Below are positions 27,951 to 52,108 of a stretch of 64,000 nt of DNA, piece by piece; the first letter of the stretch is position 1, and every line of letters begins with the position of its first letter. Below the pieces are notes generated by a model. That model made no database searches. It was not told the DNA's origin and worked only from the letters and a program-made list of their open reading frames with translations. The stretch is from Tilletiopsis washingtonensis (lineage: Eukaryota > Basidiomycota > Exobasidiomycetes > Entylomatales), in NCBI RefSeq assembly GCF_003144115.1, contig NW_020312012.1:400601-464600 (forward strand). Reading direction: 5' to 3'. The position numbers and the translations under genes were made by a program.

Positions 27951-31445
<3,495 letters not shown>

Positions 31446-37768: not shown

Positions 37769-40080
37769 GGTCTCTTCTTGCTTTCTCTTCGAAGGAGAAC
37801 TGCTACAAGCAGCTTCGCTCTCTGCGCCTCCTTGGCGACCCTACTCATCCTAACTTATCCCCGCCATCGGCGCCTCCCCCTTACATATCACACTCTTTAG
37901 CGATGCCTCACACCACTCCACGCTCTTTACCACCTCGTCAGTTCTTGCGTCACCCAGTAATCTATCTGCTCTAGTAGCGCGGCAGCATCGTGATGGAGAA
38001 AGGGGGGGGGGGGTATAGAGCCATTGCGGGTATCCGTCAAACGTGCGGCGGGACAGAGCGGGCAAGGGTGCGCCGGCTCCTCAGTGCTCTGCGCTTCGGC
38101 GGCATTCACCTCACATGCTGGATGGCATGTCGAAGTGACGTCTGATGCTGGACGGGGGACGCTTGCCGTTTTCCCGGACAGGGCGACAAGACGCGGAGCA
38201 GGGGTGACGTCGAAGGGTCAGTTTTCGCCCCGCTCCGTCGCTTCCTTCTTCCCACCCACACCCACGTGAACGCGGCGCACCGGGCAGTGGCAAATGAATG
38301 ACACCTCGGAGCCGCAGCTCGCAGCGCCGGGGGTGCGGCCATGCGATGGCTCCGGCTTTCTGCGCCCCTGCGGTGCTCTCACGGCTCGACGGCCTTGCAC
38401 TGCTTGCACCTCCATCACCATGCGCGATTGCTGTCCGGCACCCGGCGTCTGAGGAGTCTGGCAGGTGATGCGCCACCTCCTTCTGTTTGCTCGCCTCCGC
38501 AGAGAAGCTGCTCCCCATGCTGTCTGGGTGCCGCCGCCACACAGCAGACAGTCGTGTTCTCACGCCTGCAGACGGAGATCCCGGCGGCTCCGCGTCCCTC
38601 GGCGTGCAGCGGCGCTGTCGGCGCAAGCCGGCGCCGGCGCGCCGTCTCGTGCGCGCGTGCTTCATGCTTACGTCACGCCGAGGAGATGATCGGCAGAGGC
38701 GCGGCACTCGCGACTGGCAGCGCCGCGCGGGCGCAGCTTCACGCGCGGCGCCCCAACAAAACTCTTGCTCAGGCGCGCCGGCAGTGTGTGGGACGGGGTG
38801 GGCACCGCAGCCGCCCGAGGGACGAATTAAAATTTCCGCCGTGCATCAGGCCGTGCCTGTGAATGCCCTATTCGCGGCTACAGGCCGGACGTCGCGTGAA
38901 ATGTCGCGCTGCGAGGCTGGCCCTGTTCGGCAGCCTGGCCTCGTAGCTTGGAGGTGCAGGTGGAGAGAGAGGGAACGTGAGGCAGCTGTGGAAGACGACG
39001 TGAATGCGAGGCGGGCTGGCGATACGAGAGATGGGGACGTGTGCGAGGGAGAGAGGAGGAGCGATGCGAGGGGGGCCGGAGGTGCGTGTGCGAGGAGCGC
39101 AAGCCCCCTGGGGCGCGAGGCCAGTCTATTTCGCGGTGCGGCGCGCGGGGGCGTGTCGCTCGAGAAAGGGAGGTCGCGACGACGAGCAGCGGCGAGGCCT
39201 CGTTACCCCACATCGCATAGCCGGCAAGACCCACATAGCCGGATGCCGAAGCATGCAGGGCGAAGACCCAGCGTGTTGGTGCAGGCTGCCGGCACGCTGC
39301 GGCAGGAGGGATGCGATGGGGTGTGCGGGGCGGCGGGGCGCGTTGGCAGGCAGGCGCGCGGCGCGCGCGCGGCGGGGGCGCAGCCAGCACCAGGAAATTC
39401 AGGAGTGGCAGAGCCGCGGAGCTGTCGTCACCGGCACGGGCATGCGGCACCCTGATGCTGCTGCTGTCGGGTGCAGTGGGCGCAGCACGCAGCGAGCACG
39501 AGGGAGAGGCCGAGGCTCGGAGGACGGCTGATCATCCTTCGCGGCGCCGGCGCAGAGAGAGAGAGAGAGAGAGAGCTGCGATGCATGAGGCAGGCGCGCG
39601 GCGACGGCGGCGCGCCCCAACAACGCGCGCCGACCGGACGGTGGCGAGAGGCGGCGCCAGCCCAGACGCCGAGGCCACGTCGCGCCGAGGCACGGCTCAG
39701 CCTCAGCGTGCGCAAATCATTTCGTGCTGCTGCTGCTCGCCGGCCCTCGCCACGCACGCTGGTGCTGGGCCGAGACAGGCTGCTCCGGCGGCTTTGGCGA
39801 GGGTGCAGCGTGCCTGCCTGCCTGCCGCACCCAGCGCCGGCCATGGGGCACGCGCCACCCGTGCGCCGAACCTCGGCCCCTCCGCCACCGGCAGAGATTC
39901 GCATGGCTGCCAGTCGAGGGTGGTATATAAGGCCTCACCGCTGGTGCTCCGCCCTTCTGCCCGCACGATCACCTCCCGTCACCCCCCTTCCCCCCTGCCA
40001 CCTCACCACCTTCACGACCACACGTCATCCACACCGCCTCACGACACCCACCTCACCGCACCACTCTCCGCACACACACC
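37769..40080. promoter_or_regulatory. Long region upstream of OLE1
   Basis: About 2.3 kb without a supportable gene. A run of 10 G lies near 38005-38014, and one unusual AT patch (AATTAAAATTTCC, 38825-38837) stands out in a GC-rich setting. The last 150 bases hold the OLE1 TATA box. Tightly regulated desaturase genes often have long promoters, so the length may be functional. Confidence 0.45.
39924..39930 (+). promoter_or_regulatory. TATA box of OLE1 (TATATAA)
   Basis: GGTATATAAGG lies 151 bases before the OLE1 ATG and is followed by a CA/CT-rich leader, as expected for a strongly expressed gene. Confidence 0.65.
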
Positions 40081-41706
40081 ATGGCGTCCGCCGAGCTCCG
40101 CAACCGCGGCCCGGCGCCGCTCGAGCCCGGCCTGCGCACGCCGCCGGCCGACCAGCTCTCGCCGCCGCAGTCCGAGGCGTCGGAGGATGAGGGCGTGGCC
40201 GTGCCGAGCCGCGGCGGCAAGAAGGCCTCGCCGCGCCCGCACCCCGACGACGACATTCCCGACGACTACGTCACGCGCACGCTGCAGCGCGAGCCGGCGC
40301 TGCCGCCGATCCAGTGGAAGAACATCCTGAGCGAGATCCAGTGGGTCTCGTTCATCATCCTCACCTCGACGCCGCTGCTCGCCGTGTACGGCATGTGCAC
40401 GACGCCGCTGCAGCTCAAGACGGCCGTCTGGGCCGGCGTCTACTACTTCTTCACCGGCCTCGGCATCACGGCCGGTTACCACCGGCTGTGGGCGCACCGC
40501 AGCTACGTCGCCAGCCGGCCGCTCGAGTACTTCCTCGCCCTCATGGGCAGCGGCGCCGTCGAGGGCAGCATCCACTGGTGGGCGCGCGGCCACCGTGCCC
40601 ACCACCGCTACACCGACACCGACCTCGACCCCTACGGTGCGCACCACGGCCTGCTGTGGAGCCACCTCGGCTGGATGATTGTCAAGCCGCGCCGCAAGCC
40701 GGGCGTCGCCGACATCTCGGACCTGCGCCGCCACCCCGTCATCCGCTTCCAGCACCGCTTCTACCTCCCGCTCATCGTCATCATGGGCTTCCTCTTCCCC
40801 ACGGCCGTCGCCGGCATGCTTTGGGGCGACTGGCGCGGCGGCTTCTTCTACGCCGCCGTGGCGCGCCTCGTCTTCGTGCACCACTCGACGTTCTGCGTCA
40901 ACTCGCTCGCGCACTACCTCGGCGAGGCGAGCTTCGACAACAAGATGACGCCGCGCGACCACTTCATCACCGCACTCGTCACCGTCGGCGAGGGCTACCA
41001 CAACTTCCACCACCAGTTCCCCATGGACTACCGCAACGCCATTTCGTGGTACCAGTACGACCCGACGAAGTGGTTCATCGCGTCGATGAAGGCCGTCGGC
41101 CTCGCCACGCACCTCAAGACGTTCCCGGACAACGAGGTCAAGAAGGGCCGCGTCGCCATGCAGCTGCAGAAGCTGCACGGCGAGCAGGCCAAGCTGCAGT
41201 GGCCCAAGAGCACCAACGACCTGCCCGTCATTTCGTGGGACGACTTCCAAGAGGAGGCCAAGACGCGTCCGCTCATCGTCGTCGCCGGCTTCATCCACGA
41301 CGTCTCGGCGCTCGACCACCCGGGCGGCGAGGCGCTGCTCAAGTCGCGCATCGGCAAGGACGCCACCACGGCCTTCCACGGCGGCGTGTACGACCACTCC
41401 AACGGCGCCGCCAACCTGCTCTCGTCGCTGCGCGTCGGCGTCCTCGACGGCGGCTACCAGCTGGCCGTCGACGAGCTGGCCAAGGCCGAGAAGCTGCAGG
41501 CCGAGGCCGCCGCCATCCTGCCGAAGAGCAGCGCGCCCGAGGCCCAGTGGTCCGCGCCGCAGCCCACGGCAGACTACCGCGGCGTCGACGCCCGGGCCCT
41601 CGCCTACATGGCGCCCGGCCAGACGTACAGCATCGCGCAGCGCGGCGAACTCAAGGAGAATGCCGTGGCGAAGAAGAGCGGCAACAAGGTCGGCCGCCTG
41701 CTCTAA
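40081..41706 (+). CDS. OLE1: Acyl-CoA delta-9 desaturase with cytochrome b5 domain
   Basis: ER membrane enzyme that makes palmitoleoyl- and oleoyl-CoA. Single exon, 541 residues, unlike nearly every other gene here. About 70 disordered residues precede the first membrane hairpin (WVSFIILTSTPLLAVYGMCT; TAVWAGVYYFFTGLGITAGY). The three iron-binding histidine boxes are HRLWAHR (residues 134-140), HRAHHRYTD (from 171) and HNFHHQFP (from about 307). A second hairpin is at FYLPLIVIMGFLFPTAVAGM. The C-terminal cytochrome b5 domain (about 380-480) has the haem ligands in HDVSALDHPGG and FHGGVYDHSNGAANLL. This fused layout is the fungal Ole1 type; animal enzymes lack b5. Codon use is extremely biased (CTC, ATC, AAG), suggesting high expression. 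Confidence 0.95.
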   Translation: MASAELRNRGPAPLEPGLRTPPADQLSPPQSEASEDEGVAVPSRGGKKASPRPHPDDDIPDDYVTRTLQREPALPPIQWKNILSEIQWVSFIILTSTPLLAVYGMCTTPLQLKTAVWAGVYYFFTGLGITAGYHRLWAHRSYVASRPLEYFLALMGSGAVEGSIHWWARGHRAHHRYTDTDLDPYGAHHGLLWSHLGWMIVKPRRKPGVADISDLRRHPVIRFQHRFYLPLIVIMGFLFPTAVAGMLWGDWRGGFFYAAVARLVFVHHSTFCVNSLAHYLGEASFDNKMTPRDHFITALVTVGEGYHNFHHQFPMDYRNAISWYQYDPTKWFIASMKAVGLATHLKTFPDNEVKKGRVAMQLQKLHGEQAKLQWPKSTNDLPVISWDDFQEEAKTRPLIVVAGFIHDVSALDHPGGEALLKSRIGKDATTAFHGGVYDHSNGAANLLSSLRVGVLDGGYQLAVDELAKAEKLQAEAAAILPKSSAPEAQWSAPQPTADYRGVDARALAYMAPGQTYSIAQRGELKENAVAKKSGNKVGRLL

Positions 41707-42392: not shown

Positions 42393-44928
42393 TCAGGCAT
42401 GGTCGTTCTCGGCCACGAGCAGGGCGCCGAGGACGAGCAGCACAGTCGTGGGTGCGGCGAGGATGACGTAGCTGACGACTGTTGTTTGAGTGGGAGCTCG
42501 GGAGTCAGTGGCGATGCAAACAGCTAACAAGTGGACAGAGAGGCGGGGGGGAAGAAGCAGCAGCTGGGCGCAAGAGGACACATACTCACAGATGGTCCGG
42601 CTGATCAGCCGCTCGAAGCCCGAATTGCCCTTGGCCGAGACGGTGGTGATCTGCGCCAGCGTGAGGGCCGGCGGCGAGCCGATCACTGTTTGCAAAGTTG
42701 CGAGGTGGTGAGCGGGTGAACAGAGAAGAAAGGAAAGGCAGCGCAAAGCCGGGAGAAACGCACGGAGGAAGGCACAGGCGATGGCAACAGGATCATCGGC
42801 GCTACCAAGCAGCGAAGGGGGGTCAGCGTTCGGCATATGGGGCCCGCTCGGCTGCGCCAGTTCGTGGCGCGAACCCTCACACATTGTAGCGCGTCTTGAC
42901 GCAGTAGTAGGCGAAGACGGGGCACAGCACGAGCGGCACGACGAGCATGCGGCTCAGCACGCTGACGGCAATGGTGCGCTTCTCGAGCGAGGCCTTGTGC
43001 TTGGCGCGGCGCTCGGCCGGCGTCTTGCCGTCGCGCCGCAGCGCATCGCCCGCTGGCGACGCGGCGTTGGTGCGCGTGTGTTGCGCGGCTTGGCCGTCGA
43101 GGGGCGAAGGCGCAAAGGCCTCGCTGGGAGAAGGCGGAGCCGAGGTGCCAAGATCGGAGCCCGAAGAGTTCCACCCCGAGTCACGCTCGGCATCGCTGCG
43201 ACCGTCGTCGGAGGCGCCGCCCCAGGGATTGCGCATCTTGGGCAGCTTCTTGGAGGAGGAGGAACTGGAGCGCGTGCCGACGAGTGTCGAGTGGTTGGAG
43301 AGCCCTTCGCCTGTGGATCCGGCATCGGGAGTGGCTGAGAGGCAGAAGTCAGAGCCGGGCGAGGGGAGGGACAAGGAGGGGAGAGAGATATGCCTCACGC
43401 TCTGTCGTTGCCTTTGCCTTGGGCTTCTCTGCGGGCACAAAGTAGGCGCCGAGCACGACCTGACAGGAGGCAGACAGCGGCATGCGTCAGCGCGATGCTC
43501 GCCTCCCAGGGCCCGCCCGGCGAGCCACTCTCGCTCACGAGACTCACCATCGTCAACGGCACGCTGACCGCGCCGGCCGTCTGCAGTGCGCCCACCAGCG
43601 GCTCAATGCTGCCGATACCCACTTGCAGCGGCCGGATCATGGCGACGATGAGGGAGATGACTGCCGCCCAGAGCGGTGCCGTCTGGTTGGCACATTTGCG
43701 TCAGCGTCGAGATGGAAGGGGGAGACGGCGAGAACGAGCAAGAGACGCACCATGAACGCCATGAACGCCTTGTAGGGACGCACGATCCAGCGCTTGCCAA
43801 AGCTCTTTGCGTTGTCGGCCGCCGGCGAGTTCCACAGCGCAGAGCTAGAGTTGAAGTGCCGTCTCGCCACTGCCTCTTCGTCCTCATTCGAGTCGCTGCC
43901 CGCCTCGCTCGGCGGCGCCGTGACGTCGGTGTGCGGAAAGGAACGCGTCCACGCTTGAGGGCGAGGCTTTGGCTTGTCGCGTCGCGAAGACAGCAAAGGA
44001 GAGGCCTCGGAGGCATCGACGTCGTTGGTGGCGCGCCGAATGGCGATGCGAGGAGGCTGCTGTGCCGCATTGTCGGACTCGACGTCGACGAGCTGCGCCG
44101 TCGATGCTGCACCTTCGTCTTGTGCTTGCGACTCTTCCTCCTCATCGACCGTCGCGAGCAGCTTTGCGCCGATGCTCCAGCGCGTCAGCATGCCGAGCGT
44201 GCTGAAGAGGACGAGATAGGTCAATGCGCGGCCAAGCATGCCGTCCACCGTGTCCTCTGGCTCTCCCTCTTCCTCCCAATGCAGCTGCGGCACGGTGGCC
44301 ACCAGACTCTGCATCAGCGCCACGGGCAGCGAGTTGCTGTTTGGACTCATGGCGCAGGCAATGGCAAAGTTGCGCTGCGCGCGCGAGATGCGAGCAATGC
44401 GCGCCATGCCGTATGCCACGAGTGCCGAGACGATCGAGACGACGACGAAGCCAATGGGCACCACGACGAGCTCGGCCAGGCGCGCGGGATTCAAGGTGAA
44501 GGCCACCTTGGAGAAGAGGAGGGCAGGCGTGAAGAAGGAGACGTTGATCTTGTTGAGCTTCGTCTGCGTCACCTTGTCGATGATGCCGCGCCGCGCCAGG
44601 TAGTAGCCCACCGACGAGAGAATGGCCACTTCGGCAATGGAAGAGGCGGTGACCTTGACGAGCGGCCAAATGGGACCCTTGCTCGCTTCGCCCTTGCGGC
44701 CGTGATGCCGCGAGGAAACGTGGATGATCTGCGGCGCAGCAGCCGAGTTCGAGGCGTGAGCGACGACGTCGGCGAGGCTCCTGGCGCGCTCGGCGTCATC
44801 GGTGTTGCCGAACGCCTCCTGCTCCTGCTCCTCGTCGTCGTCGTCCTTGTGCGCAGAGGCGGGCAGGGCAAGATGCATCGGCAGCTGCATCTTGGCGCCG
44901 ACGCGCTGCATGCTGTCGTGCTGCTGCA

Positions 44929-44969
<41 letters not shown>

Positions 44970-44998
44970 GTAGTGGCCGCCTGCTGTTGCGCAGCCAT
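42393..44998 (-). other. Auxin efflux carrier (membrane transport protein) half, possible separate gene
   Basis: From Met 44998 this half alone would be 705 residues. After the CAG-repeat poly-Gln and an acidic linker it has paired membrane segments: VTASSIAEVAILSSVGYYLA, INVSFFTPALLFSKVAFTL, LVVVPIGFVVVSIVSALVAY and ALTYLVLFSTLGMLTRW. A ~130-residue polar loop follows, then WAAVISLIVAMIRPLQVGIG, LQTAGAVSVPLTM with VVLGAYFVPA, a second long polar loop, RMLVVPLVLCPVFAYYCV, DPVAIACAFL, LIGSPPALTLAQI and VILAAPTTVLLVLGALLV. The SPNSNSLPVALMQSL and IGSPPALTLAQ segments are typical of the AEC/PIN-like family. A GTG codon at 45028 is not needed as a start. Substrate unknown. Confidence 0.75.
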
Positions 44999-46802
44999 GG
45001 CCTCGGGCAGCAGCACGCTGTTGAGCACGGCGGCCAGACGCGTGCCCGCGAGCGCCAGCTGGCGTTGCAGGATCTTTGCGCTTTGCGAATCGAGAAGGGG
45101 AGCCGAGGGGGTCAGCGATCACTAGCCCCGCTCCCTTCTGGCCGCATCAACCCCGCCGCGCAGCTCGGCTCTTGCGCTCGCGCAACGAAGGCAAGGTAGA
45201 GGAGGAGGCGAGGTGGGGGTGCGGGAGGGTTTAACTCACTCATCGATCCTCGCCGCATATTCGCCATCCAACTCCGGTCTCTCCATGCCGCCCTTCTCCG
45301 GCACGGGCGTTGCAAATGCATAGTGGCACACGAGCGGGTGCATCTTCTCGCTCCACGCATACGGGCACAGCGGCTCGTCTGTGCGGTCCACATCTGCCGG
45401 ATCCCACTCGCTCGAGGAAGCGGAGCTGGCGGTGGAACTGCCGCCGCCGAGGAGCGAGGAGAGCTTGCGCACGGCAGTGGACGAATGCGGCATTGCAGAG
45501 CGCAGAAATGTCGCTGCCGCGCTGTGCAGAGGCTTCTTGGCCTTGACGTCGGGACAGGCAGGCCAGGCATTGACGTCGCTCCACCATGCCTCGTTGGCGC
45601 CGACTTGGCCCATGCCTTCGGCGAGGATCCAGCGAATGTAGGCGTCGTAGCGTGCGCCGCGCAATGCCGACTCGATGCGTGCGTTGGGGAGCGGCGACGT
45701 GTAGTTTGAAAGCGTGCGCAGCTGCCGGTTTAGGACTGTGCAACGAGAGAGAGGACGATTAGTGGAGAGGTAAGAGGAGAGAGAGGCCAGCAGCAGGAGC
45801 AAGCGACACAGACTCACGAAGACCGTCCCAGACGCTGTGCAGCTCTGAGCACAGACGCGACGGAGAAGGTTAGCACGGTGTGGAGTAGCGCCAGGCATGG
45901 GGGGAAAGTGAGGGCCGGCGCAACACTCACTGGCAATGCGTCCCTACAACATGTTGCCGCGTCACGCAAATCAAGCGGGAATTTGGGCTGGTCAGTTGGG
46001 CACGTCGCCTCTCACATTTCCCCCCCCCCCTCCCTCGCCCATGTGCGCGGCGGAAGAGCCTGCCAACTCACCTCGAAGCGCACCACGACGTCATTGCCGC
46101 CTCTCTCTCTGCCCGTCAAGTGCAGCGGCTGATGCAGATCACCGATCAGATGCGTGAGCATTCGCAGTGCCATGTCTCTCTCCCACTCGCGTCCCTCTCC
46201 CCTCTGCGTCCTGAGGCGCGTCGTGTAGTTGACGCTGGCCGACAGCACGTTTTCCAGCGACGTCCAGCCGGTGGCGCCGTAGATGCACGACGCGGGAGGC
46301 GTGTCGTTGATGGGATTGACGTAGTGCAGATGAGAAGACCACGGATAGCGAAAGCGAATCGTGTCGGGCCACGAGGCGATGGGCGCCAGATGGCAGCTGC
46401 GAGCAGAAGAGTGGGGCAATCAGGCATGGCCGGCGCGGAGACATTTTGCAAGAGGGCGACAGGCACAGCAATCTCGCTACTGTCACCACCCACCCATCCT
46501 ACTCGCCAGGCCGGCGCGACATCAGGCGCACTCGTCAAGTGGCACAGCATGATGCTCGCCACGACGACCACCCACGCCATGCCACGCGCCCACACTCACT
46601 GCAGATGCGGCGCGCCCTCGCGTGGCCAGGCGCTCCAGTAGCTGGTGGCATTTGGCAGAATGGAGCAGAGATGTTTGCGCACGAGAGGGTGCAGCTGAGC
46701 TTGTGCCAGCGTGGCGACGATGGCGTGCCCGTCGGCGCCCCATGCCTGCACGCTGGGCAGTAGGAGCGCATAGACGCCGAGGAGGAGAGCGAGGAGATGC
46801 AT
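42393..46802 (-). CDS. S1/P1-type nuclease fused in frame to an auxin-efflux-carrier-type transporter
   Basis: Minus-strand exons: 46802-46600, 46396-46072, 45943-45931 (13 nt), 45844-45818 (27 nt), 45735-45240, 45080-43751, 43682-43548, 43459-43399, 43334-42881, 42801-42764, 42685-42590 and 42478-42393; 1087 residues. The nuclease half has a signal peptide (MHLLALLLGVYALLLPSVQA) with W21 as mature N-terminus. All nine expected zinc ligands are present: W21, H26, D79, H92, H150, D154, H160, H183 and D187. Its usual C-terminus (ILQRQLALAGTRLAAVLN) is in exon 6, and no stop follows: the frame runs through a poly-Gln and acidic linker into the transporter. If translated whole, this is a secreted-side nuclease tethered to a transporter. 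The alternative is two genes, with the second starting at Met 44998 and the nuclease ending by an unseen alternative splice or polyadenylation. Confidence 0.7.
44930..44969 (-). repeat. CAG repeat encoding poly-Gln
   Basis: About 13 nearly perfect CAG units (CTG on the plus strand) in the linker between the nuclease and transporter halves. Likely length-variable between strains. Confidence 0.85.
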
Positions 46803-47128
46803 CGCGGCGTGGATGCGGCGGTGAGGAGAGAAGCAGAAGTGCCCAGGTGCGGAGCCGAGGCGAGATAGCGCACAGGCAGCAGCCACGATGGCCCGAGCTG
46901 GCAGGCACGTTCATGCGCGCTCGCGCCGCTGTATCCGCATCGCGCCTGTCGAATACAGACCGCTGCGCCGCGATTAGGCTTGCAGAGTGCGCGAATACAA
47001 CCATGCTCGATGACGCGGCGCGCGCGCACCTCCACCTCCAGTCGTCCTTGCCCTCACCACCACCCCACGCACACTACGCACACCGTCCGACGCACCCGCA
47101 CCTCTGATCCCACCTTCTGCTGCGCTCC
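46803..47128. promoter_or_regulatory. Divergent promoter region nuclease-fusion / EF-hand gene
   Basis: 326 bases between divergent starts. No TATA box is clear. It probably serves both genes. Confidence 0.45.
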
Positions 47129-47432
47129 ATGTCGCCTCCGCGTCCCTCGTCGCACGCCGTCTTTCTCGACGCCTGGCGCGCGTGGCGCCTCGAGGCGGGC
47201 GACGAGCCGGCCTCGCTGCCTGCGCCGCTCCTGCTCCACGCCGACGCCGAGGCCGAGGCTTCGACTGCTCGCAAGCGCAAGCGCAAGCGCAGCAAGGGCG
47301 TGCGCAACAGCGAGCACAAGGCTGCAAGCAGTGCCGGCGGCGCAGGAGGAGGCGGAGGATTCTTCGTCGATGAGGAGCAGCAGCAGCAGCAGCAGCAGGA
47401 GATGGGTGCTGCAGCAGGCGGTGGATTTCTGC

Positions 47433-47467
<35 letters not shown>

Positions 47468-48577
47468 GCGTCTGGCGGCTTCCTACCCGACTCGCCCTCC
47501 TTGCATGCCGGTCCTTCCACTTGCGCCTCCGCCTCTACTCCCTCAGCTCCAGCGCCGAGCCACATTCCGCTCGCGTGCATCCCCGACGCGCTGGCCTCGC
47601 TGCGTCTACCTCACGCAGACCCCTCCGTCCTCGCTCTCTTTCGCGACACTGCCGTTGCGCTGCCCGGCGCAAAGGGAGCAGAGGCGCGCAGGCACAAGTT
47701 TGTAGAGAGGCGCAGCTGGGACGCCGTGGTGGGATTGTTGTTGGAGGCGGAACCGCAGCCGGAGGCGCAAGAGGAGGGAGAGGCGAGGGAAGAGGAGGCA
47801 AGTGATGAGGAAGAGGGAGTGAGACGTAGACCGCTGCGAAGGACGCGCAAGACGACCACACGTGCGTCACGCGGCCACCAAGAGTCGCAGGAGGAGGATT
47901 CGCACGAGTCGGACGAGTATGAAGGCAGCGCGCTCTCGGAGGAGCAAGAGGAATCGGAGCAAGAGGAGAGCGAGCAAGACTACGACGACGACGGCGGCAA
48001 GCAGCGTCGTCGTCGTGGCAAAGGCGGCGCAAAGGCGAGCGCCGCCTCGACGTCGATGTCGGGCAAGCGCAGCAAGACAGGCAAGCCTGCCGCCGCCGCC
48101 AGCACGGGCATCGATGCAAGCGAGTCCTCCTCCTCCTCGCAAGCCATGCCGTTGACGGCATCCCAACGCATCTACGTAGAGGAAGCATGGAAGCTGCTGC
48201 TCGACACTTTGCCGCCTGGCACGACGCGCGTGGGCGTCAAGGAGCTGAAGAGGGTGTTGGGTGGCTTGGGAGAGAAGATGAAGGAGGATGAGGTGAGTTT
48301 TTGTGCACAACATCGAGGCCAAGCAAACGACGGCATTCCATCGGACGGCATGGCGACGGCATGTCGACGGCAAGTCGAGGCGTAGCGAGGGGGATGGGGG
48401 GGGGGGGGATGTGGGAACAGGAGAGAGAGAAGAGAGCATGATTGCTTTTTGGGCTCGTTGCCGAGCGCGCCTCGCTCGAACAAGTCTCGTAGGCACGGGA
48501 ATGGCCCAGTCTTCTTTGCGTCTTGCTTCGCATCGCTGATCCACCTTTGTTCTTGGCCTTCAAATCTCCCTTCTGTG

Positions 48578-49794: not shown

Positions 49795-52108
49795 ATGCAG
49801 CTCCCCTCTCTCCTCATCCCGCTCGCCGCGGCCCTTCTCGGCGCCCTTTCGTGCGCACCGCACGTCGCGGCAAAGGCGCAGCCGGGCGTGCTGGATCTGA
49901 CAAAGGAGGCCGACTTCAACAAGCATGTGGGCAAGGACTCGGTGCGTTTGTTTTGGTCGGGCGTGTGTGTGTCGCGCGCGCGCGTGTGTGTGTGTGTGAA
50001 ATCTTGCCGGCACTTCTGCCTCTCTCCCTCTCTTTCCTCTGCTGCGAAACTTGGCCGCCATTCCACCCCCCCCCCCCTCTTCCCCCCTTGCTGACCCACA
50101 CGCAACGCCACCCTGGGTCCCCACCCACGCACACAGCCAGCGCTCGTCGAGTTCTTTGCGCCGTGGTGTGGACACTGCAAGAAGCTGGCTCCCATCTACG
50201 CCCAGCTCGCCTCTTCCTTCTCCTCTTCCGCCTCGGGCAGCAGCGCGGCCGTGCACATCGCCAGCGTGGATGCCGATGCCAACCGCGCGCTCGGCGCGCG
50301 CTTCGACATTAAAGGCTACCCGACGCTCAAGTGGTTCGCCGCCGGCTCGCTCGCGGGCGAGGAGTATCGCGGCGCACGAGACCTCGAGAGTCTCAGGCGC
50401 TTCGTCGCAGACAAGATTGGCGCAAAGGGGGAGAAGAAGAGGCAAGATACGCGCACGGTGGCGGTGCAGCTGAGCAACGGCAACTTTGATAAGGTGGTGC
50501 TGGATCAGACTAAGCATCGCTTGGTGGAATTGTGAGTNNNNNNNNNNNNNNNNNNNNNNNNNNNNNNNNNNNNNNNNNNNNNNNNNNNNNNNNNNNNNNN
50601 NNNNNNNNNNNNNNNNNNNNNNNNNNNNNNNNNNNNNNNNNNNNNNNNNNNNNNNNNNNNNNNNNNNNNNNNNNNNNNNNNNNNNNNNNNNNNNNNNNNN
50701 NNNNNNNNNNNNNNNNNNNNNNNNNNNNNNNNNNNNNNNNNNNNNNNNNNNNNNNNNNNNNNNNNNNNNNNNNNNNNNNNNNNNNNNNNNNNNNNNNNNN
50801 NNNNNNNNNNNNNNNNNNNNNNNNNNNNNNNNNNNNNNNNNNNNNNNNNNNNNNNNNNNNNNNNNNNNNNNNNNNNNNNNNNNNNNNNNNNNNNNNNNNN
50901 NNNNNNNNNNNNNNNNNNNNNNNNNNNNNNNNNNNNNNNNNNNNNNNNNNNNNNNNNNNNNNNNNNNNNNNNNNNNNNNNNNNNNNNNNNNNNNNNNNNN
51001 NNNNNNNNNNNNNNNNNNNNNNNNNNNNNNNNNNNNNNNNNNNNNNNNNNNNNNNNNNNNNNNNNNNNNNNNNNNNNNNNNNNNNNNNNNNNNNNNNNNN
51101 NNNNNNNNNNNNNNNNNNNNNNNNNNNNNNNNNNNNNNNNNNNNNNNNNNNNNNNNNNNNNNNNNNNNNNNNNNNNNNNNNNNNNNNNNNNNNNNNNNNN
51201 NNNNNNNNNNNNNNNNNNNNNNNNNNNNNNNNTCCTTCTCTTTTGTCCCCCCTCCTCTCTTCGCTCTCTCGCTCTCTCACGCGCCGACTTCGTTCCTCGG
51301 GCTCGCCGCACGACTCGGCCTTGACTCCCGCAACTTGCGCCCCGCCCCCCCATCTTCCGTCCTCGTGCGCCCCTCCCTACGCTACGCTTCCCTCGCCCCA
51401 GTGCGTCGTGGCGCAACTGGACGCCGACAATGCGCTGCACAAGACGTATGGGCAGCAGTACGGCATTTCCAGCTACCCCACCATCCTCGTGCGTAGGTAG
51501 TGATGCGCTTCATTCACTCTTGCCCCACGCACACACACACACGCACCCTTTGCGCGCGACCGCTAACCCCCCGTCGTTGTTGGGTTGCCCAGTTCTTCCC
51601 CAAGGGCAGCTCCACGCCGAAGCCCTACACGGGCGCACGCTCCGAAGAGGCGCTGCTCAACTTTCTCAACGACAACTGTCAGACGTTCCGCAAGGCCGGC
51701 GGTCTGCTTTCCGAAATGGCAGGCCGCATGCCATCTCTTGACCGCCTCGCCGCCCTCTTTTTCAACGGCGCCCACGACGACGCCAGGGCCTCGGTGCTCG
51801 CCGAGACCAAGGAGTACGTGGCGCGCATGAGCCAGAGCGTCAATGCCACAGAGGCAAAGAATGCGGCGGCAAAGTACTATGTGCGCGTCATGGACAAGCT
51901 CCTAGAGACGCCAGAGTACGTCGAAAAGGAGACGAAACGCCTCGAGGCGCTCCTGGCCAAGCACGCAGAGGGCGTGGCGCACCTGGCCGCAACGAAGGTC
52001 GACGAGCTGACGCGCAAGAAGAACGTGCTCGCTAGCTTTCGCAAGATGTCGCAGGAGTACATGGAGCGCCTGCACGAGGCGGGCAAGAAGAGACACGAGG
52101 AGCTCTGA
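49795..52108 (+). CDS. Protein disulfide isomerase, ERp38 type (interrupted by sequence gap)
   Basis: ER-lumen thiol oxidoreductase. Visible exons: 49795-49941, 50137-50531, then a gap, an exon ending 51488 (from about 51402), and 51593-52108. A signal peptide (MQLPSLLIPLAAALLGALSC, then APHVAAKA) starts it. Thioredoxin domain 1 has FFAPWCGHCKKLAPIY with C60-G-H-C63 and GYPTLKWF. After the donor at 50532 the sequence is unknown. Domain 2 resumes at CVVAQLDADNALHKTYG with SSYPTILFFPKGS, so its own CGHC should be inside the gap. The C-terminus is the ERp29c-like helical domain (LDRLAALFFNGAHDDARASV; AAKYYVRVMDKLLETPEYV; MSQEYMERLHEAGKKRHEEL). There is no classical HDEL/KDEL; it ends KKRHEEL, which may act as a weak variant. 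About 90 residues are missing. Confidence 0.88.
50538..51232. other. Assembly gap (695 N)
   Basis: Run of N inside the PDI gene, starting six bases into an intron. It removes most of thioredoxin domain 2. The surrounding introns carry C and G homopolymers, a common cause of such gaps. True length is unknown. Confidence 0.99.

Follow-up and report, generated by a model that had tools for sequence, protein, structure and literature searches.

Does the minus-strand locus at 46802–42393 of a 64,000-nucleotide stretch of Tilletiopsis washingtonensis contig NW_020312012.1 (the whole stretch is called the window below) encode one protein or two, when a secreted-type S1/P1 nuclease and an auxin-efflux-carrier (AEC) transporter can be read there in a single frame? 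All coordinates are positions in the window, and the features of the locus are on the minus strand. The locus was modelled with 12 exons, and its spliced frame comprises 1087 open codons, from the ATG at 46802 to the end of the final stop codon at 42393. Introns 1–4 are located inside the nuclease, intron 5 at the disputed join and introns 6–11 inside the transporter. The order in the modelled chain is S1/P1 nuclease, a 114-residue linker rich in polyglutamine (polyQ) and acidic residues, and AEC transporter; both Pfam domains are found in this one frame, in agreement with the original prediction. A single-chain nuclease-AEC fusion is the best reading of the locus, and we hold it with moderate confidence. 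It is built on the open frame, a nuclease that continues to the last positions of its profile, a match to the AEC family, the C-terminal helix of the nuclease family lying in frame with the transporter, and a compatible charge pattern, and on these grounds the single-frame fusion is supported at the level of sequence.

The nuclease part matches the Pfam family S1-P1_nuclease (PF02265) with an E-value of 7.4e-47 and 160.8 bits (the curated cut-off is 29.5). The match is divided into two stretches, the best of which covers profile positions 1–170. A hydrophobic stretch at residues 3–21, as seen from hydropathy only and not from a signal-peptide predictor, ends at W21, which corresponds to the mature N-terminus of the family. 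The part matched 8 distinct PDB sequences, and in four of the five chains with displayed alignments (ENDO2 twice, 8qjl and the P1 nuclease 1ak0) the alignment begins at the mature N-terminal tryptophan, while in the fifth, the S1 nuclease 5fb9, it begins after this residue. When compared by eye with chain A of 1ak0, all nine zinc-ligand positions are retained (W1, H6, D45, H60, H116, D120, H126, H149 and D153), as had been predicted; the list of positions used for the count is the one that we take to apply to 1ak0. According to an excerpt of PMC4144908, the nine ligands of S1/P1-type nucleases are one tryptophan, three aspartates and five histidines. The start codon, the signal-like N-terminus, W1 and H6 are encoded by exon 1 (46600–46802), and the core with D45, H60, H116, D120 and H126 by exon 2 (46072–46396). 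These are followed by a micro-exon of 13 nt (exon 3, 45931–45943), a 27-nt exon that carries H149 and D153 (exon 4, 45818–45844) and exon 5 (45240–45735), which encodes the C-terminal half up to ..GEYAARID. Both short exons, of 13 nt and 27 nt, are spanned by the PDB alignments, which supports the splice model. Three N-glycosylation sequons are present in the nuclease part, and the domain looks complete. Within exon 5 (45735–45240) there is an additional serine-rich stretch, at about residues 262–310, which does not align with ENDO2 and distinguishes the chain from that enzyme.

The case for a fusion depends on what follows intron 5. Exon 5 ends with ..GEYAARID plus GA (45241–45240), and exon 6 opens with C (45080) GCA AAG ATC CTG. 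The phase-perfect join proposed earlier, with GA at 45240 and C at 45080, is confirmed, as is the absence of stops over the 443 codons of exon 6 (1330 nt, 45080–43751). The peptide QLALAGTRLAAVLN, the C-terminal helix of the S1/P1 family, is in the same exon and the same frame as the transporter. It forms the beginning of exon 6 (45020–45080, AKILQRQLALAGTRLAAVLN); the C-terminal end of ENDO2 is QRLAQGGVRLAATLN, and the first 20 codons of exon 6 contain QRQLALAGTRLAAVLN. A 106-residue piece spanning the join aligns with positions 195–257 of the 258 in the S1-P1 profile with 31.9 bits (cut-off 29.5), and the Pfam score of the nuclease is 165.5 bits with the end encoded by exon 6 and 141.4 bits without it. 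Six-frame translation of the window gives 96,136 stop-free 20-mers, and the helix has the highest mean score of all of them against three solved S1/P1 C-termini. The Pfam match of the join-spanning piece is a stronger test of the helix than either this ranking or the phmmer alignments, both of which have a weak point: taken one at a time, the references place the helix second (ENDO2), first (8qjl) and second (S1), and the separate phmmer stretches over it, found in four of the five displayed chains, score just 1.4–4.3 bits. The earlier claim that the C-terminal helix of the nuclease is read in the transporter frame is thus borne out by the match to profile position 257 and by the 20-mer rank, and an in-frame C-terminal helix of the right family is difficult to explain by chance. 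The GC content of the window is 65.7%, and outside the gene a run of 25 codons is open at 71% of positions and one of 114 codons at 27%. In such GC-rich DNA the open run alone is therefore weak evidence, and the case rests on the helix being in frame rather than on openness.

Intron 5 (45081–45239, 159 nt) has a GTGAGT donor, a branch-like CTGAC approximately 32 nt before its end and an AAG acceptor. Every AG located 50–499 nt downstream of the donor at 45239 was considered as an acceptor (n = 44). The helix is preserved by only one of them, at 45080, whose frame then crosses the linker and enters the AEC helices. The AEC frame is kept by five of the 44, and the helix is lost in four of these five, including the CAG acceptor at 45017. 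The acceptor at 45080 is the first AG past the sole CTRA site of intron 5, and in all introns of the gene but one (10 of 11), a CTRA site lies 15–49 nt from the end. None of the 11 GTs between 45030 and 44620 matches more than one of four donor positions, while the 11 donors of the gene match three or four, so a second intron through which a nuclease with this helix could reach a stop is not apparent there. Past the helix, the other two frames have their first stops ending at 44796 and 44569; at this distance, a one-base indel error right after the helix would hide no near stop.

Several observations weigh against a single chain, and those at the join bring in two overlapping genes, an explanation that we consider unlikely but worth weighing. 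In such an arrangement the nuclease mRNA would retain intron 5 or take an earlier acceptor, so that the enzyme would lack its last helix, and the AEC transporter would be expressed separately from a promoter in exon 5 or intron 5 of the nuclease. Retention of intron 5 leads to an immediate stop (ARIDE-stop, TGA at 45238–45236), and eight of the 44 acceptors, all upstream of 45080, give a helix-less nuclease that stops 3–18 codons on. Two of the upstream acceptors, at 45137 and 45121, are YAG, with TTGAT as a possible branch site, and with them the nuclease stops after 5 or 3 codons. The AAG acceptor required by the fused form is rare here: it is the sole non-CAG/TAG end among the 11 acceptors of the gene, and in a crude window-wide scan for introns with a GTGAGT, GTGAGG or GTGCGT donor, one of the 40 candidates ended in AAG, probably intron 5 itself (with five control hexamers, the same scan gave two of 11). 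Neither this AAG ending nor the immediate stop on retention figured in the original prediction. An ATG at residue 383, seven codons after the helix and in a GCCATGG context (−3 G and +4 G), could serve as the start codon of an AEC protein made on its own, as could a later ATG in the linker. However, two genes would not explain why the CTGAC site is followed, in the correct frame, by the C-terminal helix of the family, and a free nuclease would be short of 24 bits of conserved domain. The stand-alone transporter would also need to pass a charged N-terminal tail of 67–107 residues across the membrane without a signal peptide, which would probably be difficult.

The remaining points of this kind concern the linker (44678–45019), which contains the GCCATGG-context ATG, a polyQ run and an acidic stretch. 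Codon scores were trained on a neighboring desaturase frame together with the nuclease and AEC parts, with the linker excluded. By the all-codon measure, each of the three frames scores below zero in the scoring segments that start within intron 5, at 45239, 45194 and 45149. The exon-6 frame scores above zero in 11 of the 12 segments from 45104 to 44609, the exception being −0.3 at 44789. The synonymous-only score is weak in the linker (−2.4 at 44789 and at 44744), and by the same measure another frame outscores that of exon 6 in the polyQ zone (45014 and 44969). The linker therefore looks coding, but not strongly throughout. PolyQ and acidic stretches are commoner in cytosolic or nuclear proteins, and the last 15 residues before the first transmembrane helix (TM1) contain three lysines or arginines and one acidic residue, a mild point. 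A linker that is long, of low complexity and probably exposed would also suit a joined frame without consequence, in which the chain is cleaved after insertion and the released nuclease and the transporter work separately, the stop was lost recently, or the join is peculiar to this strain or assembly. We regard this as improbable: no KR or RR pair precedes TM1, the stops of the other frames at 44796 and 44569 leave no near stop for an indel to hide, and the only run of Ns in the window (695 Ns, 50538–51232) lies upstream of the gene, 3.7 kb from the start codon.

Two further observations were made on exon 6. A Pfam match to TFIIA (21.3 bits; the cut-off is 36.2) was ascribed to the polyQ and acidic composition. 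A fold model of exon 6 alone, computed without an alignment, had a mean predicted local distance difference test (pLDDT) score of 46.5 and was too poor for use; the nuclease helix in this model extends through the polyQ run (residues 2–61, block pLDDT 72–83), a feature that was not relied on.

The transporter part matches Mem_trans (PF03547, the AEC family) with an E-value of 9.9e-38 and 130 bits (the curated cut-off is 25.7), in one stretch that covers residues 502–849 and profile positions 5–251 of 343. The remainder of exon 6 (43751–44677) encodes TM1–TM5 and most of the TM5–TM6 loop. TM6–TM10 and the stop codon are encoded by exons 7–12 (42393–43682; individually 43682–43548, 43459–43399, 43334–42881, 42801–42764, 42685–42590 and 42478–42393). 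The Pfam match ends at residue 849, at about TM7, so TM8–TM10 rest on hydropathy. At a threshold of 1.25, hydropathy recovers nine of the ten expected helices in addition to the N-terminal one; for the count of charges the boundaries of all ten, TM4 included, were placed by hand. With these hand-placed helices and the N-terminus outside, 26 lysines and arginines near the membrane belong to cytosolic loops and six to lumenal ones. This pattern fits a lumenal N-terminus, so that a nuclease with a signal peptide could precede TM1 without an additional membrane crossing. A lumenal or extracellular position of the nuclease, as proposed originally, is accordingly consistent with the charges, and placement on the lumenal side is supported by the predicted topology. 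In plant PINs, according to an excerpt of PMC9477730, a cytosolic loop separates two five-helix groups, a layout from which, by counting, the N-terminus would be non-cytosolic. The search of the PDB with the AEC part returned a single match with an E-value of 0.4, judged to be due to chance, and no PIN was matched by sequence; NCBIfam gave no match for two exon pieces.

In the single-chain reading, one gene would produce a membrane protein of 1087 residues. Its signal peptide would direct the S1/P1 nuclease to the lumen of the endoplasmic reticulum, where the enzyme would fold and possibly be glycosylated. After the flexible polyQ/acidic linker, translocation would be halted by TM1 of the AEC-type transporter, whose N-terminus would be lumenal, and the ten helices would insert so that both long charged loops face the cytosol. 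In this way the nuclease would stay tethered to the membrane that contains the transporter, on the lumenal or outer side. We infer a single transcript, a single stable chain, its location, its enzyme activity and any functional link to the cargo of the transporter. The suggestion that nucleic-acid breakdown is coupled to uptake is unsupported, as the solved relatives, the PINs, export auxin from the cytosol (PMC9477730). Intron 5 might even act as a switch, with splicing at 45080 giving a tethered nuclease and retention or an upstream acceptor giving a free one that ends within 18 codons, an idea that we rate as very improbable. If it were true, one locus would control whether the enzyme is released or bound to the membrane.

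Both parts come from known families, and their union would be new. The locus shares with the S1/P1 family (PF02265; P1 nuclease 1ak0, S1 nuclease 5fb9 and Arabidopsis ENDO2 3w52) the signal-like N-terminus, the N-terminal tryptophan, the nine zinc-ligand positions and the C-terminal helix, but here the chain runs on in frame beyond that helix into a transporter. With the AEC/Mem_trans family, of which plant PINs are the solved members, it shares the Pfam match, probably ten helices, a long charged loop after the fifth and, by charge, a non-cytosolic N-terminus; it differs in the whole nuclease in front. It differs further in having, besides the TM5–TM6 loop, another long and charged one of 133 residues that connects TM7 to TM8 (within 43459–42881). 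The tethering of an S1/P1-type nuclease would have a precedent in trypanosomatids, in which some class I (S1/P1-type) nucleases are described as membrane-anchored in an excerpt of PMC13232948. The likeness is that of an S1/P1-type nuclease at a membrane; the anchor in the trypanosomatid enzymes is a putative transmembrane domain, in contrast to a transporter of approximately ten helices here. The same excerpt describes, in a Leishmania major cluster, putative membrane-bound copies without the active site (PMC13232948). Full-text searches of open-access papers for a nuclease-AEC pairing turned up no report of one. Scans for relatives with exon 6 as the query gave 600 pattern-matching stretches in viral contigs and 591 in prokaryote genomes, none of them confirmed, and these non-fungal collections are uninformative on conservation. 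Several of the peptide patterns used were polyQ or acidic and poor for reaching relatives, and the nuclease part did not serve as a query. If the chain is made, a secreted zinc nuclease is paired with an AEC transporter, a combination unreported in the open-access literature searched; it would place a lumenal enzyme on an AEC transporter and provide a topology marker for transporters of this type.

The locus is flanked by two plus-strand frames. Upstream and head to head with it is an open frame, possibly a gene, at 47108–48385 (+) that has no Pfam match. Downstream and tail to tail is a fatty-acid desaturase with a C-terminal cytochrome b5 domain (39931–41706 (+)), whose GC content at third codon positions (GC3) is 0.94. 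Scanning the window for Rfam families and tRNAs gave no matches. The genome looks fungal. Elsewhere in the window, a single open frame at 29082–30563 (−) matches amino-acid kinase, N-acetylglutamate synthase and semialdehyde dehydrogenase, and resembles what we take to be the fungal arginine-pathway double enzyme.

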